Source: Erodium maritimum (taxonomy: Eukaryota > Streptophyta > Magnoliopsida > Geraniales > Geraniaceae). Taken from it: a DNA stretch of 64,000 nt. The notes beneath the pieces were generated by a model. It was given only the letters and a program-made list of their open reading frames with translations. It ran no database searches and was not told the DNA's origin. Within the stretch, counting starts at the first letter, position 1. Each line of letters begins with the position of its first letter. This document shows, in pieces, positions 10,208-62,440 of the stretch. Position numbers and translations under genes: made by a program. Where the stretch lies: positions 21,075,515 through 21,139,514 of the forward strand of contig OY997591.1 in the NCBI GenBank assembly GCA_963921825.1. The letters are read 5' to 3'.

Positions 10208-10718
10208 TGGTTTTTCAAAACCTCAGACCGTATGTCAATTTGGTGGGTAGAGTTAGGTTGTTATGGTTCTAATGTTTGGTTACGCGAATCGGAAATGTCC
10301 TAAGCGTAGATCCGAGACGACGAGAGTTTCGGGTAGTGAACTACTTGTTTGAGTCTTGCCTGATATTGTGTTATGTCGTGTGCCTTGGTTGAACTGTTGT
10401 GTCGATCGGTTGAGATCGAGGCTGGGTTAGCAAGCGGTGCTTGATGCAGTTTATGATGTGGATGTTGATTGATCGTTATGTGGGTTGCCACCTTGGTCGG
10501 GTGTTGAGTAATTGGTTGGATCGAAATGTTGATTTGGTCGGGTGGTAATCGAGTAATTACCGAGACCCGAGATGTGTAACTGCAATGTTTTGCTGTGTGC
10601 TATGTTGTGCTGAATACTTTGTGCGGTTTGTTTATTGAATGTCCTGCTTAAGCGGATGGTTAGTGGAATTTACGAACGGGTCATGCCCAAATTTCTGCAA
10701 AACTGAAGTGGTTGTACC

Positions 10719-10816
10719 ATCACGGGTTGACTCAGGGGCGCCACTGTATTCGAACGTGATAGGGGAATGTCAAGTGGTTACAACGAGATTCGGGGACGCC
10801 TGAGTCGGGTTGTAAC
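10719..10816 (+). other. Conserved leader stem-loops SL1 and SL2 (G1)
   Basis: SL1 (10719-10760) closes with ATCACG/CGTGAT. SL2 (10777-10816) has an outer stem GTTACAAC/GTTGTAAC and an inner hairpin GATTCGGG-GACG-CCTGAGTC. Matching structures are in G3 (53570-53667) and T1 (22211-22309) with compensating changes. They lie about 360 bp before gag and may be packaging or dimerisation signals. Confidence 0.6.
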
Positions 10817-12064
10817 GACGCGATATCGACATGAATGTTGTGATAGGAAGAGAAAGGTGTTGAGAACCTATGGAAATGAGTTAGTGCGGAGAATCTGTGA
10901 AACTGTTGCGTGATGTGAACGGTATACTGTGTAACTTGGTTGACATTGTGACTCCCGTGGGAGATGGTTGAATTGTGTGATTGATTCTGTGAGACGCACA
11001 AGTGTGCGGACTTCTCTGATTCTTTGAACTAATCCATGACTATACTAAGACTACGTATGTTGTTGGTCTGAGTATGACCCTTGTGAAACGTGTGTGAACG
11101 TTACTGTTTGTAAGCGAGCCACTTTGTCGAAACAAAGAAACTGAACATGTGTGTTATCCATGCAGAGGATATACGACATGACACCTGCCTACGTACCGCG
11201 AGGCACTAGGAGTCGCCCAACTAGAGGCCAGGGGAAACCACCTTCCATTGAGCAGGGAGGGACAATTAGTGCCCATGGTGCTTCCTCCACCAAGAGACTT
11301 CCGCAGGCTGAGTAAACCTATCTTTTCCGGGGAGCCAGACCCCGAGGAAGCCGAGAGATGGCTGGAGCGGGTTACCCGCAACCTGGACACATCGGGGATA
11401 CGAGATGGTGGCATGAGAGTATCTTTTGCGGGGTTCCAGCTGGAGGGAGACGCAAACTATTGGTGGCAGCGCGAGTAGGGGATCACTTTCAACTGTTTGG
11501 ACAGTGGTTCTTGGAGCAGTATTTCCCGAGATCAGCCCGAGATGACATGCACCAGCAGTTCCTGGAGCTGCGTTAAAGAGGGATGATTGTATCGTAGTAT
11601 GAGGCGAGGTTCACATCCTTGTCCCGCTTCGCACCGGAGATGGTGCAGACCGAGGAGCGTCGTTGCAAGCGATTTGAGAGGGGACTCATTCCGTCGATCG
11701 TGGACCGAGTCACCGCCTTCAGGACTGAGGTTTACACCGAGCTAGTGGACCAGGCACTGGTAGTGGAGCGACACATCAAAGAGACCGCCAGGGCCTGCGA
11801 GAGCATCCGAAACCGAGTGGCTTTCTGAGGTCGTCTGAGGGCCGCGATCCAAGGAGGCAGAGGACCTCAGGATCTTTCCAGCCACAACCCCAGTCTAGTG
11901 GGATGCGCCGAGTCGGAGCAGTAGCGTCCGTTGGACCTGCCCCGTTAGCGCAGTTTGGCTCCCTGTGCATGCAGCTCAGTCATCTGGGCCGAGATTGCCC
12001 GATGAGTGGTAGATCTACAGATCGCCCAATGGATCGTCCGACGAGGGTCGAGGAGAGGCCGCGT

Positions 12065-22165: not shown

Positions 22166-22210
22166 AGCTTCCTCCACTTCCTTAAAAACCTCATTTCCTG
22201 ACATCAGGTA

Positions 22211-22309
22211 GTTACAACCCGGTCCAGGCGTCCCCGACCTACATTGTACCCACTTGATGTCAACACCGTCACGCTCGACTACAGGGGCGCCCCTGAGTCG
22301 AGTCGCGAC
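22211..22309 (-). other. Conserved leader stem-loops (T1)
   Basis: On the minus strand SL1 (22309-22268) closes GTCGCG/CGTGAC around a CTCGA/TCGAG stem. SL2 (about 22250-22211) retains the CGGGGACGCCT core. Spacing and SL1 length (42 nt) equal those in G1 and G3. Confidence 0.55.
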
Positions 22310-23119
22310 AGTTTAAAGTGTTTCACGCAGCAACGCACAAACAGTATGCCAGTAACCCCGTACTGCACATACACACAAGCACAAACAGGACACACAACAC
22401 AACGGGTCTACACACGGTTTCGACCTGCGTACCCAATGCACGACAGGACTTTACTGACTCGACTCTCCCCACCTAATTGACGTACAGTCCGAGGTGTGAA
22501 ACCTCGAGATCTGATACCAAGCTGTCACGCCCCAATTTCAGTAAACCAAACTCAGGACGTGAACTTTTAAAACAATAAAACATTTTGAAACCTTTTACAT
22601 TAAATCAGTTTAAAATCACCATTTGTTCAAAAAAATAATATTTACAACTTAAAACACGTCCCAACAAGTGGACAAAAGTATGGCATCCATCCCTAGACTC
22701 AAAATAAACCCAGAATCACGCTCCCAGCTCTTCAAGCTTCGGAAGCTCACCTAGTCCAACCTGCGACCAGTACCTGTAGGAAAAGCAGCTAGGGGTGAGC
22801 GTTCGCTCACCACCACGGATAACAAAACTGACTACGGCATAATTAGCAGAAAATGCCGGTAACACCAACAACCAACTCAACACCGGGGACCACTATCCCC
22901 CAAACTAAGTAACTTAACTGACATACCACCCGTTACTTCCTCAACAGACTCAACACTCGGACTCGTAATGTAGACCCAACACACCGATCACGACCTCTTC
23001 CAAGGACTCAAAAGACCACCACGCAAACCCAAGATCACAAAGGATCGCATACCAAACAAGATCACAAAGGATCGCATACCATCTGCTCAGTAACCTCCTT
23101 CACGCCCTTTACCAATCTC

Positions 23120-34299: not shown

Positions 34300-34300
34300 G

Positions 34301-41081: not shown

Positions 41082-42650
41082 TTAAAGAGGTGGGATACTT
41101 TGTTCATTAGTGAAGAAATTGGTAGGATCAACCATAGTCTTGACACGCACCAATCTGTCGAAGTTGTTGTTGAAATATTTACTTCCCCAAATGCGTGATT
41201 GCTTGTAGCTGATTTGGTGTTGAAAGTTCATCCCAATATCAAGATCCCTGTAGTTGACATAAGCCTGTCTCGGGTTCTTGGAAACATAGGGACCCAAGAA
41301 ACTATAAAGTCGTCGGATCCAAGCCACACACTTGTGTGCAACCTCTGCATCGTCTTCAACCCACGACACAGTGTACTCAAGTTGATACAAATTCCCAGCT
41401 CTATGTGGAAATGGGATATGAGTTTCTGATATCTCACTCATTTTGCCTCCATAGGCCACGAGAAGCATTTGTCCGGTCTCGCCTCCTTGATCGTGAAACC
41501 TTTCCCATATAGCGTCCAAGTTTTTTGCGGAGATGGGTTCTTGTACATAATCTGATTTTGCTTTGTAAAACCCTCGTGTGAGAGACACCCTTCCGAGCAG
41601 GACCTCGGGTGATTGATCTCTAGGGTACCCAGCAAAGTATAGGACGGACTCGATCCAGCTCATTTGGATGCAGTGTTCACGTAGCAGCCCCAGGTCAGGG
41701 AAGGTCTGTTGCATCAGTTGGACGAGGTCGTTACTCGTTCCGAGGAACATAGCACTGAACGAGGCTTGTATTCCTTGAGTCGGGTTGGCGGGGTTTAGGA
41801 TGATCCTTAGGAAGGATAAATCTTGGGGCATCATGCTTGCCTTGAGTTGCCACTGGTAGACAAGATCGGTGACGTTGGTTTTTTGTAATGTGAAGACAGT
41901 GACAATGGAGGGAACACGAACGAGTTGAACTTTCCATGCGACGATGACACCAAAGCTAGCTCCTCCGCCTCCTCGGATGGCCCAAAAGAGGTCCTCTCCC
42001 ATTGACCGTCTGTCAAGAAGCCTTCCACGTGCATCCACGACATGTGCGTCGATGACATGATCCGCGGCAAGACCGTGTTTCCGGAACAAAGTCCCGTAGC
42101 CTCCCCCACTGAGGTGTCCTCCGGCGCCGACCGTGGGACAAACGCCTGCAGGGAAGCCTAGGGTGGAGCTCTTCTCAGCGATTCTGTAGTAAAGCTCACC
42201 AAGAGTCGCGCCTGCCTCAACCCACGCGGTCTCGGTGCCTTCATCTACGCTAACTTGCCGGAGATTGGACATGTCAATGATGAGAAAGGGGGCGGTGGAT
42301 ACGAAGGAGAGGCCCTCGTTGTCATGACCTCCACTCCTGACCCGGACCTCTAGGCCATGGCTCTTGGAGCAGGTTATGGCTGCTTGGACGTGGGAAGCGC
42401 GCGATGGAGTGATGATGACTAGGGGTTTCGGGGTTGATGGGGTAGAGAACCTCAGGTTCTGTATGGTGGAGTTCAATAGGGATGAGTAGGAGGAGTTGCT
42501 TCGGGTGTAAGTAACTGTGGATATGGAGCTGGCCTTGTCACCCGAATATAGGCATCGGAGAAAGCTTTCTTCATTGTAAACTGCCCTTGCATGACACAAA
42601 CTGTATGAGATCAAAGCGTAACACAAAATGGACACCAACTGGCCTTGCAT
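41082..42650 (-). CDS. Berberine bridge enzyme-like FAD-linked oxidoreductase
   Basis: This is an intact 522-residue intronless gene, the usual length for plant BBE-like enzymes, which are secreted or vacuolar flavoproteins oxidising alcohols, sugars or alkaloids with O2 or another acceptor. A hydrophobic N-terminus (about residues 1-21) looks like a signal peptide. The FAD-binding domain spans about 75-245. The two residues that bind FAD covalently in the family are present: His109 (RSGGHDNEGLS) and Cys171 (GVCPTVGAGG). Tyr185 of GGGYG is kept, and Cys33 and Cys94 fit the conserved N-terminal disulfide. The C-terminal BBE domain (about 462-520) has YVNYRDLDIG and VDPTNFFTNEQSIP. The position after HD is Asn111, usually Tyr, and QLEY (Glu425) replaces the common K-I-Q-Y; Glu is also reported at this site in true BBE (Glu417). 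Substrate is unknown. Copia A lies directly downstream. Confidence 0.97.
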   Translation of the reverse strand: MQGQLVSILCYALISYSLCHARAVYNEESFLRCLYSGDKASSISTVTYTRSNSSYSSLLNSTIQNLRFSTPSTPKPLVIITPSRASHVQAAITCSKSHGLEVRVRSGGHDNEGLSFVSTAPFLIIDMSNLRQVSVDEGTETAWVEAGATLGELYYRIAEKSSTLGFPAGVCPTVGAGGHLSGGGYGTLFRKHGLAADHVIDAHVVDARGRLLDRRSMGEDLFWAIRGGGGASFGVIVAWKVQLVRVPSIVTVFTLQKTNVTDLVYQWQLKASMMPQDLSFLRIILNPANPTQGIQASFSAMFLGTSNDLVQLMQQTFPDLGLLREHCIQMSWIESVLYFAGYPRDQSPEVLLGRVSLTRGFYKAKSDYVQEPISAKNLDAIWERFHDQGGETGQMLLVAYGGKMSEISETHIPFPHRAGNLYQLEYTVSWVEDDAEVAHKCVAWIRRLYSFLGPYVSKNPRQAYVNYRDLDIGMNFQHQISYKQSRIWGSKYFNNNFDRLVRVKTMVDPTNFFTNEQSIPPL

Positions 42651-43181: not shown

Positions 43182-45376
43182 TGTCGCGCCTCAAATCCGG
43201 TAGAAATAATAAATGAATAATAATTAAAGTGAAATTTAACGAAGCCAAACCGTAAATCTTTAAGTTCCAAAATTATACTTTCGATAAATAAGACATAAAT
43301 CGACCCTTCAAAACGAATAAATTTAAAATGATGTTTTGTAATGAAAAAAAAGTACGTCTTCTACAACAATAACACCCGGACTATCCAGAAGCTCCCGAGC
43401 CTCGAGTCCACTACTCACCAAGCAAGCCTGTTCAAACAAGAAATAAACAGATAGGGGTGAGCTTACGCTCAGTAGGGAAAATAATAAACAACCATCCTCC
43501 AACTTGATAGTAAAGTAGAATTAACGCGGTTAAGTACCATATACAATTAATACGACTAATCAACGAGATGCTATTAAGGAGATAACGATAACGGTAATAT
43601 TCCAATCTTAAAGGGGTAAACGTCATTTAAGAAAATGAGGAAAACGATCTAATCTTTAATAAACTACTAAAGCAAGACAAGATGTAAATATCGTGCCAAC
43701 AGATTAAATCACAATACTCCGATCCACAGTTGGTTCTTGTGTCATGTCGGATCTCATACTCCGATCCACAATAGCCCTAGTGTCATGTCGGTTTGCCCCT
43801 CGGTCCAGGGGAAACACATATCATCGAGGCTACCGGAAACATCCCTAAAGGGACGCACATCGTCGGAATTCTCGGAAATGTTCCCAAGGGGCCATAGGTC
43901 ATCGGGGTCCAAGGTAATGATCCCGCATGACGCATACACTCGGGTGAATCAACAAGTAATTATTCCCCGCAGGGTAAACCATCCAATTGCCCCGCAGGGT
44001 CCAACAACCACACACCATACCGGAAACGCACATCGGCCTAGACGCCTTCCCGGTAACCCACATCGGGGAGTATAATCGCATACCATACCGGAAACGCACA
44101 TCGGCCTAGGTATTTTCCCGGACTACCTCGGGTGGAACACAAAACCATCTCAAAACGTACAAAAGACACTAACATGCCAATATATCATACAACCAAAGCT
44201 TAACAAATCATAAATCCATCACAACACACCAAAGAGATCCATATACCTTTACACTTACCGTTATACTTACCAATAGCGATCCATCGCTCTACCACTCACC
44301 CGATCATACCATTTGGCACAATCAATTACACTCAAGCATTCATCCAATCATTCAATCATTCAAGCATCCATTCAATCATTCAAGCTTCCGTTCAATCATT
44401 CAAGCATTCGATTTATCTAGTTTAGTTAGACTCTTAGTTTATCCTGGAGACTAAGCAAGCAATGCATGTGAGGCAACCACAACCAATCCTATGGCTCATC
44501 TCGACCTTTCTACCAGTAAAGCAATTTCCCAAGTATTGAAAGCGAGTAAAGCTAGTTATTTACATTCTATGCATGCATACTAGACACGTCCGGTTATTAG
44601 TAATTGAAAGACGATTATTCTAGTTATTCGTATCCTATATGCAATCCAGGATCTTTTCTATTTTATTAACCTAAGAGGCATACTAAGTATTAAATTGCAC
44701 GAGGAGTTTAGTACTTTCCCAACCTCAAGGTCTTCCTCTAATAATACTCCCAGCTGCTGACGACCGGGCCAACTCCGTCTTCTCGGCGAAGTCCAAGTTC
44801 TCGGGCAAGGTCCCAGTCTGATTTTAACAGGTAAAACTTACACTCAGAACCGATACAGTCTAAATAACAACAAGTTGATCTTTAAACTCAAACGGGCTAA
44901 AAGCGGGATTAAACGACGAGTCGGGTTCGAGCACCCGAACATCGAGCACAGAATCCCGAGGCACGGTTCCCAATGCGCGGATCCCGAGGTAATGTTTTCG
45001 AGGCACAATTGCCGAGGCACCCGATTCAGCGTTTCCACTTTTAGTCCCGTTCTAATTCTGTTTTTCGTTTAAAACTTTTATTTTATTTTACTTTCTTTAA
45101 TTAAACTGATTCAACACTCTGCCCAGATTCACAACAAGGCTCGGGAAGGAAACAACAACAAAAAAAGACAAGGATGCTCGGGTTGGGTCCGGCCGACCAC
45201 CGGCGAGGACATCGTCGGCGACCAAACCCCAAGGGTGAGAATCTCACCGTAGGAAAAGGGAAAACGACGAGGAGGCGGTTGCGCGCTGGAAGCGATGGAG
45301 CACGACGGGAAGCTCGCCTCAGGTCCGGGCGGAAGTTGCGATTTCGTCCCAGATCCGTCGATTTTTCCGGCATGGA
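43182..45376 (-). mobile_element. Gypsy LTR M2 (minus strand), left portion
   Basis: It starts TGTCGCGCC, the 3' end on the minus strand, with no primer-binding site or polypurine tract beside it, so it is solo or terminal. ATTTT precedes it (43177-43181). It has the hairpin GAGCGTAAGCTC on the minus strand (43470-43459), GTAAGTAT (44270-44263) and short tandem repeats at 43710-43800 and 44010-44125. From 44623 it matches M1. At 45377 it is interrupted by P2, at the same site where P1 interrupts M1. Confidence 0.85.
43428..44270 (-). other. Candidate intron inside M2 LTR
   Basis: On the minus strand GTAAGTAT at 44270 and CAG|G ending at 43428 bracket the hairpin and short repeats, as in P1, G1 and G3. 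Splicing is inferred. Confidence 0.4.
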
Positions 45377-47037
45377 TGTAAAACCCCACTTAGTTTTTAA
45401 AGGGTAAAATTTGGGAAATATGAAACGTTTGGGTATGAATTTGCAACGAGTGGAATTTGAAAGAGAAAATTCAAGAAAAAAAGGGAAAAAGGGAGTTCTG
45501 AACTAGGCAGAAGGTTGGGCTAGATCTTGGGCCCAAACCAGTGACGCGCACGGCCCAAGAGAAACAAGGCCCATGCGCACTAACCCTAAAGCCACTTCTG
45601 GTTCTCTTCTTCATTGCGCAGCTGCACGATTACCGAGACACCCTTCTCTCTCTCTCGATTTCGCACCTCCCCTTCCTCTCACTCTCGATCTCCTTCTTCC
45701 TCGCGCTACCGACCCACCACCACCTCACACCCCGTCCTCACGCTCTTACCGAGCTCGTTTCAAACCCAAACCTACCGGAATCGACACGGGCTCGCTGGAT
45801 AACGCCCGGATTCGAAGCCTCCGAGCTCGTGGCAGCGACAGTAACCGAGAACCGAAGAGGGTTCGTCCTCTCTCGCCATTTCTTCTCTTCCCAGACCCCG
45901 TTTTACCCAGAAACACCTCAGGCCAGACTGGGTTGGACGGAAACAACCAAAATCGACGCCGGTGGCCACTTCTCACGCCAGATCTGAGACATGAAAGGTT
46001 GGGCTACGCGTCGACTACTGTTGCTCCTCCCTGACGCTCTCTCAGCCTCGACAACCCCTTCTCCGAGCTTCTCTGCCTCCACACTGTCCCTTTGACGCCG
46101 GAGACTCGCCGGGGAACTCACCGGAGCTTGTTGGCTTGCCGTCCTCGTCATCAGCTAAGACGGGACCTGGCAAAGTCGGGCCTTAGGCCAGACGGGCCTT
46201 TAGCCAGGTGGATGGGTCAACACCAAAGGTTTGGGCCAGGCCCAGAACCGGATAGTCTGGACCGGATCAGATCTGGATCCGGGTTGGGCGTGGATCCGGG
46301 TCAAATCATATTTAAAGAAAAATCACTTTTAAAATCAGGTTAATTAACTGTTTAATTAATCTAATTTGGAAAATTAAGGGACAAAATTGGACTTTTGCCG
46401 GTATTGATTGGACTTTTCTTTGTCAAACCTAGACGGGACTTCGCCCGAGCACAAGGGCTTGGACCCGAGCTAGAAGAACGAAGATCACGCCAGAACCCGT
46501 GTGAAGAACGGAGTTGTGACCACTCGAGCTCTTCACCAGAGTATTATTAGAGGAAGACCGCAAGGTAGGGAAAGTCTTAATTTCTTAATTAATGCTTAGT
46601 ATGCATGATTAGGATAATAAAATCGGAAAGGTCCTAGAATTGCCTATAAGATGCGAATAACTAGAATAATCGTACTTCAATTACTAATAAATGGATGAGT
46701 CTAGTATGCATGCTTAGGATGATGACGATTAGTGAAGCTTACTTTCAATATTTGGGAATTGATTTACTGGTAGAGAGGCTGTGAAGAGCTCTCGGATTAG
46801 TTGTGTGCTAGGTTCACATGCTTGGTTGCTAGTTATTAGGATAACATAAGAGTCTAAGGAAACTAGATTAGCTTGTTTGATTAAATACTTAATTGATCGT
46901 TCACATGATGGTTGATTGCGTACTTGGTTGATTGAGTGTTTGTGTTGATATAATTGTTGCTTGAACGGATGATCGAGTATGACTGGTTGTGCCAAGGGGT
47001 ACAATCAGGTGATCGATGTACCGATGGTTCGTGGCAG
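45377..47037 (+). mobile_element. Gypsy LTR P2, partial
   Basis: It starts TGTAAAACCCC and matches P1 from 861 to about 2515 at roughly 96%. Similarity ends at GTGGCAG|GT, which is the donor-like site of the candidate LTR intron; unrelated sequence follows. A 148-residue frame is open in both P1 and P2 but is not conserved like a protein. Confidence 0.88.
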
Positions 47038-47359
47038 GTTGGGTGTGAAAGAGGAGTAACAGAACTAGTCGTACGAGAAGTTCTTTTCCTTCTTCGATAG
47101 TGAGGAGCGAGTTTTAAGAACCGATGGGTGAAACAACCGACGTTCATCGAATATCATCAGCAGCGAATGCTGAGCAGTGGAAGGCTGCAGCCTTGACCTG
47201 TAAACGGTCCGACCGGTCAACAGAGATGACCGAACAATGATAAGATCAGAGTAGCCCAGCGGAAGCGTGGTGGGCCCATAACCCACATGAGTAGTAATCT
47301 CCAGTTTCTTCTACCTCCGCTAGAAGGTTTAGGTCACAAGATTCGAACCTTCAAGGCGA
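47038..47359 (+). other. Unidentified sequence with tRNA-like segment
   Basis: This links P2 to unit U2. No protein gene is seen. It contains the tRNA-like segment described at 47245-47351. Confidence 0.5.
47245..47351 (+). other. Initiator tRNA-Met-like sequence, pseudogene or SINE head
   Basis: The first 42 bases (47245-47286) match the 5' half of plant initiator tRNA-Met with two or three differences. They include an A box (TAGCCCAGCGG, 47252-47262) and an anticodon arm GTGGG-CCCATAA-CCCAC with anticodon CAT. About 50 bases later is a B-box-like GATTCGAACCT (47340-47350). The 3' half does not fold as a normal T arm or acceptor stem, so it is not a working tRNA. It may be a SINE head or a captured primer tRNA. 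Confidence 0.6.
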
Positions 47360-49005: not shown

Positions 49006-49679
49006 CACCATGCTCTGTTCCACTGGAACCAAAACTCACAGAATATTAAGCATTCTCGGCTCGCTTCACCCAAGCCTGTCCGAGCTTCTTAATTCCTGGA
49101 GACGAAACCTCTGTACTAGACACACGAGGGTGTGCCAAAGCTAAAAAAAATGTATCCATTAATCGTATAAACATTGAAGGTCTCCACTGCCATTGACGCA
49201 GATTCTGGTGTCGAAAATCAAACCCAAAAATCTTTCTGCCTCTGTTCTGACGCTTCAAAACAGAGCATCCGATAATCTCACCAAAAGCTCCAAAAGTGCG
49301 ACGAACCCAATTCTCCGAAGTCGCAATGGGTAAATTTAGAATGTAAATTTCATTTGGAATTACCTTTGCAGGATCACATCCCTTGTGAGTTGGAAACGCC
49401 TGTTTCTTCCTCTTCAAAAGTTTCAACCTTTGCGTCGCAACTGGATTGGAAGAACCACCCATCTGTTCAAGCTCCCCACCAGCAAGCCTGATATCGATTC
49501 CCTGTTTCCCGATCGCAACTCCTAACTGATCACGACCCTGAACAGAGCTCGACTACACTGGTTTCACTTTCTTTTTCCCAACCTGACTGGCATGACAAGA
49601 AGCATATTTCGACGTGACCTTCTTAACCCGCACTGTCGCCTTAGTCGGTATAGAAGCACGAACTCGTTTGACTGAAATG
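49006..49679 (-). pseudogene. RRM-containing ORF, probably LINE ORF1 fragment
   Basis: An open frame of 138 residues (49462-49046) contains an RNA-recognition motif: RNP2-like IYILNLP, then SENWVRRTFGAFGEIIGCSV and RNP1-like RKIFGFDF. The order and spacing resemble RRM-type ORF1 of plant L1 LINEs. Coding-like sequence continues upstream to 49679 with one stop, and G3 is inserted there. It could instead be a host RRM gene. No poly(A) tail or reverse transcriptase was seen. Confidence 0.45.
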
Positions 49680-50627
49680 TGTAAGAACCGCTCCCAGTCG
49701 ATCCCGGTCGAACCGGTGACTTTTAAGACAAGGTTGACTTTCTGCCGGAAAAGTCAACTGAGGACTCGGGAAGTCACTCGGGGGGCTTTTCCGGGGCCCA
49801 AAAAGCTTAGTCGTCATCACGGTTGGCTTAATTGGGCCGTTTCCATTCTTTTGAGTATAATATCGAAGGAAGTCAAATTTGGTCAAAATCGAGTTTTTTT
49901 ATCGAATCGATACATTTAAACTTGGACTGCTGGATTTTAAATGGAAGAGAGTGGCCCCATTATGCCAAGTGTCACTAATGGCTTGGAGGGAAGGAAAGAG
50001 GCTCAAAAGTCATCTCTACCCTCACTAGTTGTCCACAAAAGGGATAAGAACTAAAGGGTTTTTGGTCTTTTACACCTCTAGGTCTTTTTAAAGTATTAGA
50101 TGACACAAAATCAGCTCACACCTTAGTGTTGCAGCCGAAAATCACAAAGGGAGAGAGCAAGAGAGAAGCTCATTTCTTGAGGAAGAAGATAGTGAAGAAA
50201 GTTTGGATTTTGGAGCTAGTTCTTCATCCTTTTGACTCCATTTTGCTTCCCTCTCCTTCATCTCATCATCCTAAAGGTATGGATGCTCTCAACTCTTCAT
50301 TTCATCTACTCTCAATTCTTGGGTTTTGTGGGTTTTGGCTTGAAATTGATGAACTAGCCTTGTGTTGGTCTATTGGAGAAGGAATAGTGAAGTAGGATGT
50401 TGAGTTGATACTTTTGTTGAAATTTGATGAACATTTTGGAACTTTTGATTTGATTGTGATTTGGAGAATCATTGGAAACTTGTTTGTTTGTTGATTCCTA
50501 CCATGGGTAGAGGAGCTTTGATGTTATTTGATGGTTTTGGGAGCTGGAAATGGTTAAAAATGGAGTTTGGTGGTGGATTTTTGGAGAAAAGAAGATGGAG
50601 GTTGAAGAAGGGCGGAACTGCCCAGGA

Positions 50628-50765
50628 GCGTCACGGATCTGTGACGGATCCCGTGACGGGTGACGTCACGGCTACGTGAAGGACACCGTGACAGCACACG
50701 TCACGGCTCCGTGACGTCTTTCGTGAGGGTCGGTGTCACGGCTCCGTGACCGTGTCCGTGACCGA
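50628..50765. repeat. GTCACGG/CCGTGAC palindromic block
   Basis: Repeated inverted units, including TGACGTCA at 50661-50668, the core bound by plant bZIP (TGA/CRE-type) factors. It may act as an enhancer. It is similar to 21720-21840. Confidence 0.75.
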
Positions 50766-51479
50766 CCAGTTCAGAGGGTTTTTTTTAGGGTTTTCCCCCC
50801 GTTTTGATCTTGGTTAGGAGCTGAACTTTGGAGGGGTTTTGGGGAACCTTTTATTACTGTCAAGTGGAGTCTAATTAGAGTTTTGTTTTGTGATCAAAGA
50901 CCACAAGACCTTGAAGAACGAAGACCTTGAAGAAAGTAGACATTGCCGGTACCCGTGTGAAGGACGGTGTGGTGACCATCGCTTGTGACAACAGAGTGTT
51001 GAGAGGAAGACCACGAGGTAGGGAAAATCTTAACTTCTCGATTAAATAACGCTTAGTATGCATGTTAGGTTAATAAAAATGGAAAGGTCCTAGAATTGCC
51101 TATAGGATGCGAATAACTAGAATAATCGTCTTTCAATTACTAATAAATGGATGAGTGTAGTATGCATGTTTAGGATGATGACTATTAGTGAAGCTTGCTT
51201 TCAATACTTGGGAATTGATTTACTGGTAGAGAGGTTGTGAAGAGCTCTCGGATTAGTTGTGTGCTAGGTTCACATGCTTGATTGCTAGTATTAGGATATT
51301 CAAGAGTCTAATGGAACTAGATCGAATGCATGCTTGATTGTTCTTAGTTTTACTTGAATGCTTGAATGATCATTGATTACTTGAGGGGTGATTAATTGTT
51401 GATTGAACCGATGATCGAGTATGACTGGTTGTGCCAAGCGGTACAATCAGGTGATCGATGTACCGATGGTTCGTGACAG

Positions 51480-52461
51480 GTAAGTATACGGTAAGCGTGG
51501 AATGGTATTGGATGTCTTGTTGTGATGAATGTATTCCTTGATGAGTGTTGAATGATGATTGAATGATATTGCTGGTTCCTTTATCTTTATTCTTAAGATG
51601 TATGTTTGAATGATTGTTTGGTTCGGTACTACACCGGGGGGTAATCCGGTGCCGTTGGTGGTTTGAGTTGGACAGATGTACGGGATATTGAGTGATGTGA
51701 GGAGCTTATTGCTCGGCAGATCCTACGGGATATCGAGTGACGTGAGGAGCTTATTGCTCGGCAGATCCTACGGGATATTGAGTGACGTGAGGAGCTTATT
51801 GCTCGGCAGATCCTACGGGATATTGAGTGACGTGAGGAGCTTATTGCTCGGCAGATCCTACGGGATATTGAGTGATGTGAGGAGCGTATTGCTCGGCGGA
51901 TCCTACGGGATATTCATTGATTATTGGGGCCAGAGGGCTCGGTAGATCCTACGGGATATCGATTATGGTTACTAAGGTTTCACCCAAGTGGGTGTGTCCC
52001 ACGGGAGCACCACTTGGTTCCCTATGATCGATGGTCCCTTGGAGGCATATCTGAATGGTTTTCGGTGCCCCGAAGCATGTACCTCCTCTGGACCGAGGGA
52101 AAATCTGATATGACATGGATACTCTGGTGGATTGGGGCATGGAACCCGAGGTTGTCCCAGAATCTATCCATCGATCGGAGGCTTGAGAAAGCAAGTGATT
52201 GACAGGATATTGATTAATTCCATTTTACTCTTATTGATTCATTAAAGTAATTCTTTTGAAATTCCTTATGATATTGTTACCTTGAGATTATTGTCTTATT
52301 GTAGTTATTTCTGTTTCTTTATTATTTCCTTGTTAATTGTGTTAAACTATTGATTCGGGTTACCTTTGTAAGCAGTTTACTATTTGACCTAAGGGTTGAG
52401 TTATTAAGGTTTTTCCAACTGAGCGTAAGCTCACTCCCTTTGGTTTCTGACTGTGTTACAG
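51480..52461 (+). other. Candidate intron inside G3 5' LTR
   Basis: AG|GTAAGTAT at 51480 to TTACAG|G ending at 52461 (982 nt), enclosing minisatellite and hairpin. The 3' LTR keeps the pair at 60290 and 61279. Splicing is inferred. Confidence 0.45.
51676..51930 (+). repeat. 45-bp minisatellite, G3 5' LTR
   Basis: About five units containing GGGATATTGAGTGA and GCTCGGCAGATCCTAC. As 45 is divisible by 3, the frame stays open and gives a spurious repetitive peptide. Partner array at 60494-60735. Confidence 0.92.
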
Positions 52462-52737
52462 GCGTGTCGGATGTCTAGTGAGTTCGAGGCCCACGAGCTT
52501 TGGGACTTCTTGGGGTTTTTAGTAGAGTTATGTTGGTCTTGTGTATTGAACATCTTTTATCGTACTATTTATGTTGAGCTGTGACTCACGAGGATTTGAA
52601 CTACTTGTTTATCTATATCTTTTTTATGGAGCTTTTATGAGAATTTTAAGGTTTTATTAATTGTTTATGATTTCTATTCATTTCAACTCAGGTCACGTCT
52701 CGAGTCCGGTCAAATCCGGATTTGGGGCGTGACAATT

Positions 52738-52750
52738 TGGTATCAGAGCC
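52738..52750 (+). other. Primer-binding site of G3
   Basis: TGGTATCAGAGCC, complementary to initiator tRNA-Met. Confidence 0.92.
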
Positions 52751-53569
52751 TGGTTTCATTTGAAACAGGTGGTAATTTTCGAACTTGTTTTCAAAACCTT
52801 GGACCAACGTTTATTAGGTGGGTAGAGTTAGGGAGTCTAAGTCGTGTGTTCATTGATGCAAGTGAAAATATTTGATGCAGAGAGTGAGAAAGACTCGAGT
52901 CTTACTGTTTTGTTTGTTAATTAAATTTGAACTCATTTGATTATAACGGTTATATCGCTTGAGTGGTACCCTTACCTTATTGACTGTGAGATGCAGTGAT
53001 CGGTGAAACCGACTAGTTGAGATCGGTGTTGGGTTGACAAGCAATGACCGAACCGTTATATGTTGATTGTTGAGTAAAGTGTTTGTGTGTTAAGTGCATT
53101 ACCGTTGTGGTTGGTTGTTTCATGTGACTTGAACTGAGGGATTATTTGAGAGGGGTGTTGATGAGGCGGGAGATTGGTTTCAATAGAGTGTTACCGGCGG
53201 AGCGGTGTTTGAGCGAAGGGAGGATTTATGGAAGGGTTGAATTGTTATGATTTGGAAATTGTTTGAGTGTTGACTCGGTTATGACGTTTAGAATTGTTTA
53301 AGGAATCAGGATGGAAAATATGATTCAGTTAGAGTAACTTTTAAAAGGGGAATCGAACTTGAGTAATCTTGCACCCTCTTGGTTGAGTGTGTACTTGCGA
53401 AGCATGAGAATCCTATGTATTGATTGTGTTGTGAACTACAGAGCATGAGAACTCTTTAATTGGAATAACTTGTGGAAATTGATTGGTAATTGTGCCGCGT
53501 AAGCGGAGGGTTAGTGGAAAATACGAATAGGTCATGCCGAATTTTCTGTAAAACTGAATTGGTTGTTCT

Positions 53570-53667
53570 ATCACGGGTTGACTCAGGGGTGCCACTGTGG
53601 TCAAACGTGATGGTTGGATGTCAAGTGGTTACAACGAGGTTCGGGGACGCCTGAACCAAGTTGTAAC
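53570..53667 (+). other. Conserved leader stem-loops SL1 and SL2 (G3)
   Basis: SL1 is 53570-53611 (ATCACG/CGTGAT, then TTGA/TCAA). SL2 is 53628-53667: outer GTTACAAC/GTTGTAAC, inner GGTTCGGG-GACG-CCTGAACC. Relative to G1 the inner stem changes on both sides and still pairs. It lies about 395 bp before gag. Confidence 0.62.
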
Positions 53668-54061
53668 GATGCGAGATCGACTCGATTATTGTGACTAAAG
53701 ACAAGTAACTTGAGGAAAGTTAAGGGTTTGTTAAAGGAAGTAAGGAAGGAGAAAGGCTGTGATAAAAAGGATTAAGGACTTGTTTGCAAAACGTCTTGCT
53801 TGTGCTTTCCACCCCAGTGATGGGATGTTTGTGGTTGATCTTTGGCTCCCATGGGAGTTGGTTGTATTACTTGGTTGCTGTGTGAGACGCACGATGTGCG
53901 GGCTTGTGTGTATATATATAAGTACTATATACAACCTATTTACTTAACCTGACCCAAATAGGATCCATTGAGACGAACGTTAACATCCCCTCTTCGCTTA
54001 GATAGTGAGGTCGTGTTGAACTTAGTTTGAACTGTACGTACTACTGCAGCGTTCTTTCGTG

Positions 54062-55170
54062 ATGTCCGGTGTCTACATTCCGAGAGGTACCCGGAGTCGC
54101 CCAGCTTTGGGGCAGAGTCAGTCACCAGCTGTTGGACTGGCAAGGGCAGCAGGTGCCAAGGCGCTGCTCCCACAGAGCACCAGAGCTTTGAGGATGGACC
54201 GCCAGGGTCACCAGTGAGAGATACCCCGGTCGCAGAGCCGACACAGACTACCCCTATTGATGAGGTGGTACGCGCAGTGCTAGCAGCACTCAACGCTCAG
54301 CAGGAGACTGCAGCACCGGCGACAGAGCTCGTGCCTGCCACTGAGACAGTCGCCGTTGAGAGGCCAGGGCAGATGGATAGCTACACGGCCCAGGCACTTC
54401 GTGATTTCCGTCGTTTGGGTACACCGACATTTTCTGGGAGCACAGACTCTGAGGCAGTAGTTCTATGGTTGGAGCGGATCACTCGCAACCTTGACACGTC
54501 TGGTATTTCTGAGGGACGTCTGAGAGTTTCCTTCTCCACCTTCCAGCTTGAGGGAGAGGCTTTTTACTGGTGGCAGTCCGTGCAGACCAGAGTTGGTGAG
54601 GATTTCGAGCTTTTTAGTCGACTGCTCCTGGAGCAGTACTTTCCGCGATCATTTCGGGATGATCGTCGTCAGCAGTTCATGGATCTGAGGCAGAGGGGTA
54701 TGACAGTAGCTGAGTATTCGGCGAGGTTCTTATCCTTGTCCCGCTTCGCACCCGAGATGGTACAGACTGAGGACAGTCGTTGCAGGCGGTTCGAGAGTGG
54801 GCTCCTTCCTGCTATTGCGGATCGGATTGTTGTTTTGAGGACGGAGGTGTACTCTACTCTCGTTGACCAGGCCTTAGCAGTAGAGAGGCACTTTCGAGAG
54901 ACTGCCCGAGAGCGAGATGTCAGGCCGAGACCGAGTGGGTTCCTCAGGCCATCAGAGAGGCGTGATGCCAGACGACAGAGGACTTCTGGGCACTTCCAGC
55001 CACAGTTTCAGCAGAGTGGTATGCGCAGAGGAGCAGCAGTGGCATCAGTTGCACCTACACCATTGGCACAGTTCTGCCCTACATGCAGACAGCAGGGGCA
55101 TTTGGCCCAGAACTGCCCGAGGACCAAAGGACCCGCAGAGCGGCAGATGGATCGTCCACAGTAGTATGAT
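54062..55170 (+). mobile_element. G3 gag
   Basis: Retrotransposon gag region with FSGSTDSEAVVLWLERITRN, WWQSVQTRVGEDFELF and RFAPEMVQTEDSRCRRFESG, then a zinc knuckle C-x2-C-x4-H-x4-C (CPTCRQQGHLAQNC). It packages element RNA into particles. Closely related to the G1 gag at 11178-12064. Confidence 0.92.
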
Positions 55171-55179
55171 GAGAGGCAG

Positions 55180-58100
55180 CGTGTCGATGATCGGACTTGT
55201 TATCAGTGCGGCCGGTTGGGGCACATTGCTTTTACTTGTCCCGATCGGGTTGGAGTTGTACCTCCATCGAGGCCTCAGCAGGCACAGCCACGTCAGGCAC
55301 CTCCCGGCCGACCACGTCTGGCACAGCAGCAGAGAGCTCCGCGTCAGGCGGCGGGAGCGGTAGCCTCGAGACACCAGGCTAGGACTCAGCGGCAGGTGGC
55401 ACTACCACCACCACTGAGAGGAGGACCACCGGCACGGCAGGGCCGAGTGTATGTAGTCACAGATGCAGGAGCTGAGAGACAGTATGCCGGCCATGAGGCC
55501 ATATAGGGTACGTGTTTATTTTTTCATTCGTGAGCGTCTTTTTTGTTCGATACGGGTGCATCCCATTCGTTTGTCTCTACTTCGTTTGCTCGTTCCTTGG
55601 GTTTGGTGACGGAACCCCTTAGTAGACTCTTGTGTCTGGAGACCCCAGTTACGGGAGAAGTGGTGTTGGACGCCGTTTGTCAAGATTGTGAGGTTCGAGT
55701 GGCAGATTGCCCCTTCTTGGGTGACCTACTCATCCTGGAGATGACGGCTTTCGACGTGATCTTAGGGATGGACTGGCTTACGAGATATCGAGCGACGATC
55801 GACTGCTTTCGACGACAGGTGACCGTACGATCCGGTGATAGAGTCATCACTTGTGTTTTGGGTAGCAAGAGCAGAGTCCTCCTATCCGCCTTGACTACGG
55901 GAATGGAGGCCAAGGTTGTGCAGGATGGCAGAGACCTACCGAGAGTAGTGAGTGAGTTCCCGGACGTTTTTCCGGAAGAATTATCAGGTTTACCGCCGGC
56001 ACGAGAGTTAGAGTTTCGGATCGACTTGATCCCCAGCACCGCGCCGATCTCGATGACACCTTATCGGTTCACGCCAGCTGAGTTAGTCGAGTTAAAGCGA
56101 CAACTTGAAGAGCTGCAAGAGAAGGGCTTCATCCGCCCTAGTGTCTCACCGTGGGGAGCACCCGCCCTCTTCGTGAAGAAGAAGGGTGGTGCCCTAAGGA
56201 TGTGCATCGATTACCGGAAGTTGAACCGGGTAACGGTGAAGAACCGCTACCCGATGCCGAGGATCGATGACATGTTCGATCAACTGAGAGGAGCGACCTG
56301 CTTCTCCAAGATTGATCTAAGATCAGGCTACTACCAGTTGAGAGTCCGAAAGGAGGATGTGGAGAAGACCGCGTTCCAGACGCGTTACGGACACTTTGAG
56401 TTTCTAGTGATGCCGTTCGGGTTGACGAACGCGCCAGCAGCCTTCATGGATTTGATGAATGGCATATTCAGGCCTTACCTGGATCAGTTTGTCGTAGTTT
56501 TCGTGGATGACATCTTGATCTACTCGCCTAGTGAAGAGGCACACGAGGAGCACTTGAGGATAGTGTTGACCTTGTTACGCACTCACCAGCTATATGGGAA
56601 TCTGGAGAAGTGCGAATTATGGCTTGAAAAGGTGAAATTCCTCGGACATGTGGTGTCCCGTGATGGTATCCTAGTCGACCCGGCAAAGGTCGATGCAGTT
56701 TCAAAGTGGGCAAGGCCCAAGAACGTGTTTGAGATCCGTAGCTTCCTAGGGTTAGCCGGTTATTATCGACGCTTTGTTCAGGACTTCTCACGTTTGGCTG
56801 CACCTATGACAGCTTTGACTCGCAAAGGAGCAGAGTTCCTTTGGACTAGCAAGTGTGAGCACTCGTTCTCAGAGCTAAAGGCTCGTCTGACCACCGCTCC
56901 AGTGTTGATTGTTCCGGAGCGAGGAGTGGGCTATGGCGTATACTGTGACGCCTCAGGCGAGGGACTTGGTTGTGTTTTGATGCAGTGCGGGAAGGTGGTT
57001 GCCTACGGCTCAAGACAATTGAAGGTGCACGAGCGCAACTACCCGACCCATGATCTCTAGCTAGCAGCAGTAGTATTTGCATTAAAGAGTTGGAGACACT
57101 ATATGTATGGTGAGCAGTTTAGGGTGTTCCCAGACCACAAGAGCCTTAAGTATATTTTCTCTCAGCGCGATCTGAACATGCGCCAAAGGCGATGGATGGA
57201 GTTTCTTGAGGAGTATGACTTTGAGCTGCTCTATCATCCGGGCAAGGCGAACGTCGTCGCGGATGCTCGGAGCAGGAAGTCAACTCATTGCGTGGCCAGC
57301 ATAGCAGTATGAGAGTGGAGCATGTTAGAGGAGTTGAGCTCTTTCAGACTTGAGCTCGAGGAGATCACGGATGGTATGGCTTTGTGTGCATTGGTGGCTC
57401 AACCCACATTGGTTACTCGGGTGCTAGAGGCACAGACCGAGGATGCTGAAGCTATAGGGATTCGTGAGAGACTGGTAGCCGGAGAGAAGATCGATGACTG
57501 GGATTTGAGTACAAATCAGGGACTTCGGTTCAGAGGACGGTTGTTCGTGCCCCGAGGATGTAGAGACACCGTGTTAAGAGAGCGTCGCCACTCCCGGCTT
57601 GTAGTACACCCCGGTGGCACCAAGATGTATAGAGACATCCGAAGACAATTCTGGTGGAGGGGGATGCGCAGAGCAGTCGTAGTTTTTGTTTCGAGATGCC
57701 TCACCTGTCAGTAGGTGAAGGCAGAGCATCAGCGCCCCGCTGGCTTACGACAGTCTTTACCAGTTTCCGAGTGGAAGTGGGAGCATGTGACTATGGATTT
57801 TGTGAGTGGGCTACCGAGGTCGTCTAAGGGGCATGATGCCATTTGGGTTGTGGTTGATCGACTAACCAAGTCGGCACATTTTCTAGCTATGAGGATGACT
57901 GACACGGTGGACATGTTGGGCCGGTTGGATGTCAGGGAGATCATTCGTCTACATGGAGTACCGGTATCAGTGGTATCTGATAGAGACCCTCGTTTCACAT
58001 CCAGATTCTGGAAGAGCCTACAGAAGGCATTGGGTACTAAGGTACTGTTGAGTACAGCCTACCACCCTGAGACAGACGGACAGTCAGAGCGAACCATTCA

Positions 58101-58836
58101 AATTTTAGAGGACATGCTTCGAGCTTGTGTGCTTAACTTTCAGGGATCATGGGAGGATCACCTACCTTTAGCAGAGTTCGCTTACAACAACAGTTATCAG
58201 TCCAGCATTGGTATGGCACCATTTGAGGCTTTATACGGCAGACCATGTAGGTCGCCGGTGTGTTGGGCTGGGGTAGGAGATCAGAGTTTGCTGGGACCAG
58301 ATATGGTCAGGGAGACGACCGAGAAGGTCACAGTGATTAGAGAGCGGCTGAAGACCGCACAGAGTCGTCAGAAGAGCTATGCAGACAGACATCGCAGACC
58401 ACTTGAGTTTCCGGTCGGAGACCACGTTTTTCTGAGGGTGAGCCCGAAGAAGGGCCTACTGTGGTTCAACCGCGACGGAGGAAAGATATCCCCGCGTTTC
58501 ATTGGACCATTTGAGGTCTTAGAGAGGATTGGAGTTGTAGCTTATCGGTTAGCCTTGCCACCGCAGCTTGGGAATGTGCACAACGTCTTCCATGTGTCCC
58601 AACTGCGGAAGTACACGGCAGATCCCTCGCATGTTATCGAGTGGGCAGATATTGAGGTAGCATATGATGTCTCTTATGAGGAGCAGCCCATCAGGATTGT
58701 GGATACGGGAGAAAAGGTCTTGAGGAAGACTACTATACCTTTGGTTCGAGTGCAGTGGAAGCATCAGGGAGCTGACTCGACCTGGGAGCGAGAGGATGAG
58801 ATCCGAGAGAAGTACCCCCACTTGTTCGACCTTTGA
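55180..58836 (+). mobile_element. G3 pol: protease, RT, RNase H, integrase, chromodomain
   Basis: In order: a second CCHC region (near 55195-55250), aspartic protease (DTGASHS, about 55546), reverse transcriptase (about 56040-56800; [20 protein letters not shown]), RNase H (about 56900-57270), integrase with H2C2 zinc site (about 57590-57715) and core ([20 protein letters not shown]), and a chromodomain-like tail ([18 protein letters not shown]) up to 58836. Chromodomains steer integration to marked chromatin. The region is broken, with a few breaks. Confidence 0.93.
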
Positions 58837-58849: not shown

Positions 58850-58887
58850 TTAATTTCGAGGACGAAATTCTTTTAAGGAGGGTAAAT
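58850..58887 (+). other. Polypurine tract of G3
   Basis: Ends AATTCTTTTAAGGAGGGTAAAT directly before the 3' LTR. The same GACGAAATTC motif precedes the LTRs of T1 and of the fragment at 30695. Confidence 0.85.
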
Positions 58888-61551
58888 TGTAAGAACCACT
58901 CCCAGTCGATCCCGGTCGAACCGGTGACTTTTAAGACAAGGTTGACTTTCTGCCGGAAAAGTCAACTGAGGACTCGGGAAGTCACTCGGGGGGCTTTTCT
59001 GGAGCCCAAAAAGCTTAGCCGTCATCACGGTTGGCTTAATTGGGCCGTTTCCATTCTTTTGAGTATAATATCGAAGGAAGTCAAATTTGGTCAAAATCGA
59101 GTTCTTTTATCGAATCGATACATTTAAACTTGGACTGCTGGATTTTAAATGGAAAAGAGTGGTCCCCACTATGCCAAGTGTCACTAATGTCTTGGAGGGA
59201 AGGAAAGAGGCTCAAAAGTCATCTCTACCCTCACTAGTTGTCCACAAAAGGGATAAGAACTAAAGGGTTTTTGGTCTTTTACACCTCTAGGTCTTTTTAA
59301 AGTATTAGATTACACAAAATCAGCTCACACCTTAGTGTTGTAGCCGAAAATCACAAAGGGAGAGAGCAAGAGAGAAGCTCATTTCTTGAGGAAGAAGATA
59401 GTGAAGAAAGTTTGGATTTTGGAGCTAGTTCTTCATCATTTTGACTCCATTTTGCTTCCCCCTCCTTTATCTCATCATCCTAAAGGTATGGATGCTCTCA
59501 ACTCTTCATTTCATCTACTCTCAATTCTTGGGTTTTGTGGGTTTTGGCTTGAAATTGATGAACTAGCTGTGACCGACCAGTTCAGAGGAGTTTTTTGAGG
59601 GTTTTTCCCCCGTTTTGATCTTGGTTAGGAGCTGAACTTTGGAGGGGTTTTGGGGAACCTTTTATTACTTTCAAGTGGAGTCTAATTAGAGTTTTTTTTG
59701 TGATCAAAGACCACAAGACCTTGAAGAACGAAGACCTTGAAGAAAGTAGACCTTGCCGGTACCCGTGTGAAGGACGGTGTGGTGACCATCGCTTGTGACA
59801 ACAGAGTGTTGAGAGGAAGACCACGAGGTAGGGAAAATCTTAACTTCTCGATTAAATAACGCTTAGTATGCATGTTAGGTTAATAAAAATGGAAAGGTCC
59901 TAGAATTTCCTATAGGATGCGAATAACTAGAATAATCGTCTTTCAATTACTAATAAATGGATGTGTCTAGTATGCATGTTTAGGATGATGACTATTAGTG
60001 AAGCTTGCTTTCAATACTTGGGAATTGATTTACTGGTAGAGAGGCTGTGAAGAGCTCTCGGATTAGTTGTGTGCTAGGTTCACATGCTTGATTGCTAGTA
60101 TTAGGATATTCAAGAGTCTAATGGAACTAGATCGAATGCATGCTTGATTGTTCTTAGTTTTACTTGAATGCTTGAATGATCATTGATTACTTGAGTGATG
60201 ATTAATTTTTGATTGAACGGATGATCGAGTATGAATGGTTGTGCCAAGCGGTACAATCAGGTGATCGATGTACCGATGGTTCGTGATAGGTAAGTATACG
60301 GTAAGCGTGGAATGGTATTGGATGTCTTGTTGTGATGAATGTATGCCTTGATGAGTGTTGAATGATGATTGAATGATAATGTTGGTTCCTTTATCTTTAT
60401 TCTTAAGATGTATGTTTGAATGATTGTTTGGTTTGGTACTACACCGGGTGGGGGGGGCGTAATCTGGTGCCGTTGGTGGTTTGAGTTGGACAGATGTACG
60501 GGATATTGAGTGATGTGAGGAGCTTATTGCTCGGCAGATCCTACGGGATATTGAGTGATGTGAGGAGCTTATTGCTCGGCAGATCCTACGGGATATTGAG
60601 TGACGTGAGGAGCTTATTGCTCGGCAGATCCTACGGGATATTGAGTGACGTGAGGAGCTTATTGCTCGGCAAATCCTACGGGATATTGAGTGATGTGAGG
60701 AGCTTATTGCTCGGCGGATCCTACGGGATATTCATTGATTATTGGGGCCAGAGGGCTCGGCAGATCCTACGGGATATCGATTATGGTTACTGAGGTTTCA
60801 CCCAAGTGGGTGTGTCCCACGGGAGCACCACTTGGTTCCCTATGATCGATGGTCCCTTGGAGGCATATCCGAATGGTTTTCGGTGCCCCGAAGCATGTAC
60901 CTCCTCTGGACCGAGGGAAAATCTGATATGACATGGATACTCTGGTGGATTGGGACATGGAACCCGAGGTTATCCCAAAATCTATCCATCGATCGGAGGC
61001 TTGAAAAAGCAAGTGATTGACAGGATATTGATTAATTCCATTTTACTCTTATTGATTCATTAAAGTAATTCTTTTGAAAGTCCTTATGATATTGTTACCT
61101 TGAGATTATTGTCTTATTGTAGTTATTTCTGTTTCTTTATTATTTCCTTGTTAATTGTGTTAAACTATTGATTCGGGTTACCTTTGTAAGCAGTTTACTA
61201 TTTGACCTAAGGGTTGAGTTATTAAGGTTTTTCCAACTGAGCGTAAGCTCACTCCCTTTGGTTTCTGACTGTGTTACAGGCGTGCCGGATGTCTAGTGAG
61301 TTCGAGGCCCAGGAGCTTTGGGACTTCTTGGGGTTTTTAGTAGAGTTATGTTGGTCTTGTGTATTGAACATCCTTTATCTTACTATTTACGTTGAGCTGT
61401 GACTCACGAGGATTTGAACTACTTGTTTATCTATATCTTTTTGATGGAGCTTTTATGAGAATTTTAAGGTTTTATTAATTGTTTATGATTTCTATTCATT
61501 TCAACTCAGGTCACGTCTCGAGTCCGGTCAAATCCAGATTTGAGCGTGACA
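58888..61551 (+). repeat. G3 3' LTR
   Basis: 2,664 bp, starting TGTAAGAACC. It carries the 45-bp minisatellite (60494-60735), GTAAGTAT at 60290, the hairpin at 61239-61250 and CAG|G at 61279. Confidence 0.95.
60494..60735 (+). repeat. 45-bp minisatellite, G3 3' LTR
   Basis: About five units, the partner of 51676-51930. Confidence 0.92.
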
Positions 61552-62440
61552 AATGCCTCTTTCTTGAAACAATATTCTCCTTACCAACAGAATAAACGAT
61601 ACCGCAGTAGGTAACATAGCTTGAAATCAGCACGGAGCAAACAGTAGAAAATGAGAGAGTTTGGATCGCCAGAACACTCATCTCTCTCATTTTTGTTCCC
61701 TTCCATGTCGTTGTCATTTTGGATCCATTCCATGTTGTTGTTGAAAACACTCCACAACCACCTTGATTACGGCACAAAACCACTGGTACAATCAAAACGG
61801 CTTACGAGAGAACTTAGCAAAACACAACCTCTTCTCTAGAGATCCCACAATAATAATGGTCTTTGGACCAAATTGTTGAAAGTAAATTGTTTCTTAGTCC
61901 TGCAACGCAAACTGAAACAACTGACCTCCAGAGAAGCTGGGTCTGCGGTCTGATGGTGAACGAGATGATCCACCACGCCGGCTCGACAAAAACCAGAGAA
62001 CCGAACTGTAACTGGTGTTCTTCTTTGTTCATCCAACACCACCGAAACCTCTCTCTACTGTTGATCGCGTCACACCTACCGAGCTCAATCCAGGAGGTCA
62101 GAATCGGTTCGGATCGCTCCCAAAACTCGCGACGAACGACAAGACACGAACGAAATCGCCGGATCGCTCATGAAATACCGAAAAGGATTCGTCTTGCTCC
62201 CTTGTGTCCTTTGGTCTCACCGTAGACGATCGGGAGGATGTCAAACGAGGCTCACCGGAGACAAAATGGGAGAGGCAGGACCGGAGGCGTGACGACAATA
62301 AGCTTCGCCGACCTGAACCCCTCTGCCCGCGTTGGAGATAAGCGTGACCAGGCCGGAGACGAGGAACCAGAGGGGCGGCTGGTGCGCGACGACACAAGCG
62401 AACCTTAGGTTTTGCGCGCGTGAGGCGTGTACCAGCGACA
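61552..62440 (-). pseudogene. Upstream part of the sequence split by G3
   Basis: This continues on the minus strand the sequence at 49006-49679 beyond G3. A 3' half (61552-61800) is coding-like but not recognised, and 62100-62440 is GC-rich and resembles a LINE or gene 5' leader. No domain was identified. Confidence 0.35.

Follow-up and report, generated by a model that had tools for sequence, protein, structure and literature searches.

Two conserved leader hairpins as a putative dimerisation and packaging signal of Tekay-like Ty3/gypsy retrotransposons in Erodium maritimum

Three gypsy elements (G3, G1 and T1) in a 64,000-nt window of the Erodium maritimum genome carry two hairpins, SL1 and SL2, in their leaders, and we are highly confident both of the fold and of its selection in the sense RNA. 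Two features are new: the SL1 loop is mostly self-complementary despite sequence change, and SL2 has a GACG loop. Together they suggest, with a probability that we put at about 0.65, that SL1 is a dimerisation signal and SL2 a packaging signal of Tekay-like Ty3/gypsy elements. In this model, the two hairpins would form a single signal in the leader of the genomic RNA. The self-complementary apical loop of SL1 would allow two genomic RNAs to begin dimerising by kissing-loop contact, as a dimerisation initiation site, and SL2, long and capped by a GACG tetraloop, would be a packaging and dimer-stabilising element recognised by Gag/nucleocapsid.

The window, that is, the whole stretch of DNA analysed (C4:21075515-21139514), is a nest of LTR retrotransposons; genome-wide counts were taken over the 763-Mb assembly, with at least nine large contigs. 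G3 is a Ty3/gypsy element with gag, protease, RT, RNase H and integrase matches (Table 1). The length of its LTRs and its tRNA-Met primer-binding site (PBS) agree with Tekay elements (LTRs about 2.5-3 kb), and it is on LTR size and PBS that we would call G3 Tekay-like. In Beta, Tekay LTRs measure 2.6-3.0 kb, with one truncated to 1.0 kb, according to the published description (PMC3605345). At the C-terminus of the G3 integrase there is a weak Pfam Chromo match (E 0.037, 14.4 bits, cut-off 25.1). The gag pieces of G1 are 67, 64 and 57% identical to those of G3. T1 is internally deleted: its protease/RT pieces are 56-58% and its integrase pieces 52 and 37% identical to G3, and no gag match was found in it.

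Table 1. Features of the G3, G1 and T1 elements in the window
Feature	Position	Strand	Remarks
G3 5' LTR	49675..52735	+	3.06 kb
G3 PBS, tRNA-Met type	52738..52749	+	832 nt before SL1
Leader island conserved between G3 and G1	53491..53694	+	84% over 204 nt
G3 SL1	53568..53613	+	outer stem, internal loop, inner stem; the 42 nt of the original prediction are 53570-53611
G3 SL2	53625..53670	+	outer stem GUUACAAC/GUUGUAAC, inner stem GGUUCGGG/CCUGAACC, GACG tetraloop at 53646-53649
G3 gag frame, stop to stop	54031..55161	+	Retrotrans_gag E 1.4e-15
G3 protease, RT, RNase H, integrase, weak chromodomain match	55534..58833	+	three frames, read as they stand
G3 3' LTR	58884-61552		2.67 kb; aligned blocks 97-98% identical to 5' LTR
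G1 PBS	10195-10206	+	
G1 SL1	10717..10762	+	loop GGGCGCCA, GGCGCC palindrome
G1 SL2	10774..10819	+	GACG tetraloop
T1 PBS	22519-22508	-	one mismatch
T1 SL1	22266..22311	-	apex CAGGGGCGCCCCUG, 14-nt palindrome
T1 SL2	22208..22253	-	G where 28/28 other family loci (duplicate apart) carry T

Several duplications were seen around these elements. The start of the window (1-2517) matches 44624-47039 at 95-98%, and near-identical copies of the G1 and T1 leaders (L010 and L040) lie ~46 kb upstream, outside the window, at C4:21040100 and C4:21051568; the leader copies and the window-start match are probably traces of a segment of some 44-46 kb that was duplicated in tandem. Two 1,690-nt copies (32612-34301 and 39388-41077) are 100% identical and have a copia-type pol frame (36488-37276) between them, which is probably a very recent insertion. 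At 2799-4662, a 934-nt stretch is duplicated head to tail with 99.9% identity. An open frame of 522 aa with FAD-binding and berberine-enzyme domains (41082-42650, minus strand) adjoins the retroelements.

The sequences, lengths and pairings of SL1 and SL2 in the original prediction (53570-53667, plus; 10719-10816, plus; 22309-22211, minus), including an SL1 of 42 nt in G3, G1 and T1, match those found here. Both hairpins are in sense orientation in each element, and in G3 and G1 they lie between PBS and gag. The stems first described are present and had been drawn too short: the outer stem of SL1 has two additional pairs in the majority of 31 representative sequences, and that of SL2 is also longer (Table 1). 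In G-type SL1, a third segment, CAG/CUG, closes an 8-nt loop. The right arm of SL2 given for G1, CCTGAGTC, is correct for that copy and a minority form in its family, where 29 other loci carry GAATC (23), GAGTC (5) or GATTC (1).

Each hairpin was folded singly and compared with 200 dinucleotide shuffles. SL1 and SL2 gave z -2.6 and -6.7 in G3 and z -5.6 and -2.8 in T1; in G1, SL2 gave z -6.4 and SL1 alone was unremarkable (z -0.8; 35/200 shuffles as good). Among other loci, SL1 folded with z -2.0 in L129 and -3.4 in L096, and a piece of L100 without SL1 folded no better than its shuffles (z -0.7). The weaknesses in G1 and T1 are mostly copy-specific. At position 10749, 28/29 other loci have G, not T, which accounts for part of the weak G1 SL1. 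The poorer pairing of T1 SL2, noted originally, holds for the window copy and is private to it, as seen from the count in Table 1, which excludes L039, the window copy itself, and L040, a duplicate nearly identical to it. When a covariance model of 35 pairs was built from 31 sequences, none of them a window copy, it found the three SL1-SL2 places in the 64 kb with E-values of 7e-28, 4.6e-25 and 9.2e-24; its other matches up to E 1 are four weak reverse-strand echoes of the same places. In G3, the model scores 120.7 bits on the sense and 25.9 bits on the reverse strand.

To follow the fold beyond the window, 146 loci were gathered, of which 145 gave the SL stretch and 139 were unique. Ten unique rows (eight of the L113 family, L137 and L141) were left out before the statistics, and the other 129 were represented by 31 medoids (93% identity). 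In the L113 family the SL1 stem is a different one, which also folds, and L137 has a shortened SL1. In L141 (70-190), SL2 is kept by an A-U to G-C swap (TGCAA/TTGCA), with no recognisable SL1 upstream. Among the 31 representatives, 90.6% of 1,074 pair cells pair, versus 31-37% in six slid versions of the structure (counting tool). The changes affect both sides in 12 of the 35 pairs, compared with 8.0 in shuffles (10/500 as high) and with 7.8 (23/400) and 7.1 (4/400) in two tree nulls. The covariation score is 0.198 versus 0.159 +/- 0.007 in shuffles (0/500); further pair types are no more numerous than in shuffles (309/500). The fraction paired is 0.919 for SL1 (tree-null means 0.751 and 0.797; 0/400 each), 0.895 for SL2 (0.731, 0/400; 0.857, 11/400) and 0.906 for the two together (0.741 and 0.831; 0/400 each); SL2 alone is thus weak against one tree null. 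Having been drawn from these same families, the structure has an advantage over the slid versions; it has none over the tree nulls, which start from the same reconstructed root.

The original prediction took the compensating changes as a sign of a selected RNA structure, and these structure-restricted tests on the 31-representative alignment bear it out. The genome-wide covariation check that it proposed had a divided outcome: the restricted tests are positive, whereas in an R-scape-like all-pairs test (129 rows, two tree-based nulls, substitutions re-dealt along a FastTree tree) E stayed at 1.5 or above for every pair, owing to the dominance of three big clades. RNAalifold, with no structure supplied, draws both hairpins, with both-side changes in 9/29 pairs. 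Two neighbouring SL1 pairs change from G-C, A-U to A-U, G-C in one clade, and A-U, G-C and G-U all occur at the SL2 column pair 80/97. At one outer SL2 pair there is no sign of upkeep: both bases are changed from U-A at 58 places, only 18 of which pair (by eye, 12 G-C, 6 G-U, 39 G-G and 1 A-G).

The position of the changes on the tree and the kind of mismatch are also informative. On internal branches, 36 changes from a standard pair preserve pairing and 18 break it; on terminal branches the numbers are 56 and 93 (rounded means of 20 reconstructions; Fisher p 0.0004). Such a concentration of breaking changes on terminal branches is expected if selection acts until insertion and decay follows. 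Over all 35 pairs there are 118 G-U and 42 A-C cells; setting aside the frayed pair 74/93 leaves 117 and 29, and setting aside in addition an SL2 pair that is G-U in 31/31 representatives leaves 86 and 29. The excess of G-U over A-C, together with the terminal position of the breaking changes, therefore indicates that selection acted on the sense RNA.

The SL2 loop is GACG in 31/31 representatives; this number is no evidence, because 26/31 were found with patterns fixing GACG or all but its flanks. In 95 loci found by DNA similarity (L001-L088 and L129-L135), GACG is kept in 88 and deviates in 7 single copies (L012, L019, L026, L034, L043, L070 and L078); in L064 and L080 the only difference is in the stem next to the loop. 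The SL1 loop is readable in 120 of the 139 unique copies and contains a strict palindrome of at least 4 nt in 101, a palindrome with G-U in 16 and none in 3. Its main forms are GGCGCC, GGUACC, AGCGCU, GACGUC (one copy) and GGCC. In G3, the loop is GGGUGCCA, where GGUGCC is self-complementary via G-U. In the L113 family, with the SL1 stem UAUGAUUUG/CAAAUCAU, the loop is CUGCAG in 7 of 9 loci, with one further locus self-complementary via G-U and one broken. Self-duplexes of strict palindromes are predicted at -5.9 to -11.7 kcal/mol and those of G-U forms at -3.8 to -7.2, compared with -2.1 for GGCACC and -1.5 for GACGCC. Taken alone, the palindrome columns do not depart from a tree null: 22 copies are self-complementary against a null mean of 16.6 (190/1000 as high), and 6 distinct SL1 loop hexamers were matched in 86/1000 simulations. 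At 938 places with the G-type frame, the palindrome-breaking GGCACC occurs 26 times and the restored GGTACC 7 times. In the first 100 of these places as listed, the loop centre is CG in 84, TG in 11, TA in 2, and CA, AA and CT in 1 each; the excess of TG over CA fits tolerance of G-U, though a founder effect in the G3 subfamily would fit it too. We rejected an intramolecular kissing contact of SL1 with SL2 (GGCG to CGCC), as the GACGCC of SL2 is common to families with differing SL1 loops. We also rejected a coding role, since every frame of each window copy contains stops and the families differ by single-base indels.

The hairpins are abundant, and their place in the leader varies. The string GGGGACGCC occurs three times in the window, once per SL2, and the pattern TACAA-N-GGGGACGCC-N-TTGTA is found genome-wide at 2,890 + 2,898 = 5,788 places (reversed control 0). 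Six places have both bases of one SL2 pair changed, four of these as TGCAA/TTGCA (A-U to G-C), against 1 place in the reversed control. At 50 places the first T after the SL2 inner stem is changed; all are single-base variants of known forms and say little about new families. In viral and prokaryote sequence collections, SL2 was found at 0 places. Beyond the two hairpins the leaders have diverged: the T1 leader aligns with that of G3 only over 89 nt of SL1-SL2 and with that of G1 at SL1-SL2 and the PBS end; the G1 and G3 leaders also have short pieces near the PBS in common. Some 80 nt just upstream of SL1 (53491-53569 and 10640-10718) are conserved between G3 and G1, not T1, and it is in these ~80 nt that single-sequence folds of the G3 and G1 islands differ. 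Shortly after SL2, the T1 leader has short repeats rich in GGCCC and GGGCG (22008-22155). The distance from PBS to SL1 is 798-838 nt in 26/28 G3-type, 506-601 nt in 25/30 G1-type and 171-214 nt in 29/30 T1-type loci, with no PBS found in the remaining ones; the medians, by eye, are ~830, 540 and 212 nt.

Some carriers of the hairpins have no recognisable gag. Of the 30 T1-family loci including the window copy, 7 others (L040, L041, L043, L044, L047, L049 and L057) are collinear with T1 from SL2 into protease, have no gag match and keep both SL1 and SL2; with L040 being a duplicate of the window copy, they amount to six independent loci. In seven further loci (L042, L045, L050, L055, L060, L066 and L068) gag is present. 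This sorting covers the window copy and 14 others of the 30 loci. The gag-less copies would need Gag from elsewhere. Their hairpins are partly a selection effect, because the copies were found by their leaders.

Could the paired changes be inherited accidents in a leader sequence shared by common descent only? This is very unlikely. Such descent would fit the negative all-pairs test, in which three clades dominate, and some of the both-side changes are indeed single events on the tree. However, the combined fraction paired lies above both tree nulls in every simulation, sliding the structure lowers the paired fraction to 28-41%, pair-breaking changes sit on terminal branches, G-U exceeds A-C about three- to fourfold, and T1 aligns with the G leaders only at SL1-SL2 and, for G1, the PBS end. 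The pairing, branch and G-U tests thus largely refute common descent as the only explanation. It is extremely unlikely that the hairpins are DNA-level inverted repeats or precursors of small RNAs (hairpin siRNA or miRNA) instead of a signal in genomic RNA. Although inverted repeats are present and the reverse strand of G3 does score weakly in the covariance model, the G-U pairs, among them the invariant one of SL2, would turn into A-C mismatches in the opposite strand, and the stems are short and interrupted.

Another possibility, less likely in our estimate, is that the hairpins do act as RNA but perform a different task in the leader, such as translation control (initiation, or shunting past a long leader), nuclear export or RNA stability. 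All of the structure evidence fits this equally. Moreover, the leaders are long, with some 210 to 830 nt from the PBS to SL1 and ~0.5 kb from SL2 to gag in G1 and G3, and a structured leader figures in RNA export of a plant pararetrovirus in a plant review (PMC12786077). Neither self-complementary SL1 loops in several sequence forms nor hairpins in gag-less copies would be predicted by such a task, however, and the distance to the PBS varies widely between families. The dimerisation and packaging reading draws on these features: as in dimerisation sites, SL1 is a 5' leader hairpin near PBS and gag with a self-complementary apical loop. The fold, its pair-preserving upkeep, its sense specificity, the mostly self-complementary SL1 loops, GACG, the position between PBS and gag and the presence in gag-less copies are all observed in the sequences, and from them we infer that the RNAs form dimers, with the loops as the contact, and that SL2 is bound by Gag. 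The role in packaging or dimerisation that was first suggested is thereby better supported, through the SL1 loop forms, GACG and the gag-less subfamily, still as a proposal.

To our knowledge, Rfam holds a model of the gammaretrovirus core encapsidation signal. No Rfam family was found for 53500-53720 at E up to 10, or for the window at the gathering score. The Erodium leaders do have a GACG tetraloop hairpin beside a palindromic hairpin, as in that signal, and lack two adjacent GACG hairpins. In murine leukaemia virus (MLV), the palindromic SL-A and SL-B start dimerisation, SL-C and SL-D with GACG tetraloops stabilise the dimer, and the GACG loops serve packaging (PMC5874298, PMC516450). The order of a palindromic and then a GACG-tetraloop hairpin is the same here. 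In contrast to MLV, there is one GACG hairpin per leader instead of two, the SL1 loops are not GACG and the palindrome is about 6 nt instead of 10 and 16; the element is also a plant one, with SL1 up to ~830 nt from the PBS.

In yeast Ty3, a CUGCAG palindrome lies in the apical part of a hairpin, and its deletion abolished dimerisation of 5' RNA in vitro (PMC11381356). This PAL6 is likewise a 6-nt palindrome in the apical part of a hairpin in a Ty3/gypsy element, and its hexamer is that of the L113 family. Unlike the hairpins described here, PAL6 lies at nt 391-396, by position apparently inside the GAG frame, and in Erodium the loop hexamer varies between families; the string GACG is absent from the text of that paper. 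Beside SL1/DIS of HIV-1, we know of no GACG hairpin. SL1/DIS itself resembles the SL1 described here in having a self-complementary, purine-flanked apical loop (G-GGCGCC-A in the G1 type) and a stem with an internal loop (PMC516450). Barley BARE1/BARE2 offer a parallel to the gag-less carriers, as gag-less BARE2 is said to keep dimerisation and packaging signals (PMC3735527); unlike the gypsy elements here, these are Ty1/copia elements. Among the matches listed in a search of titles and abstract starts of the open-licence literature, no description of these hairpins, or of a GACG hairpin in plant Ty3/gypsy leaders, was found. No word starting with "dimer" appears in a review, published in 2025, of the host factors of plant LTR retrotransposons (PMC12786077).

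A further idea, which we regard as a long shot, is that each family has its own recognition code in the SL1 loop (GGCGCC, AGCGCU, GGUACC, GACGUC, CUGCAG or a GGCC core). If so, genomic RNAs would prefer their own kind in a nucleus crowded with related elements, and the common GACG hairpin would let all of them, gag-less parasites included, use one Gag. A bolder extension would make the layout of palindrome plus GACG older than the split between Ty3/gypsy elements and retroviruses. The selection and pairing of genomic RNA in plant LTR retrotransposons seem to be poorly described. SL1-SL2 is a compact candidate with covariation support and thousands of places, by which dimerisation, packaging and gag-less parasitism become directly testable, and it may serve as a marker in seeking the same signal in other plants. 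The GACG hairpin, known from retroviruses, is now found in plant Ty3/gypsy elements as well, which bears on the question of whether such signals are convergent or ancestral.
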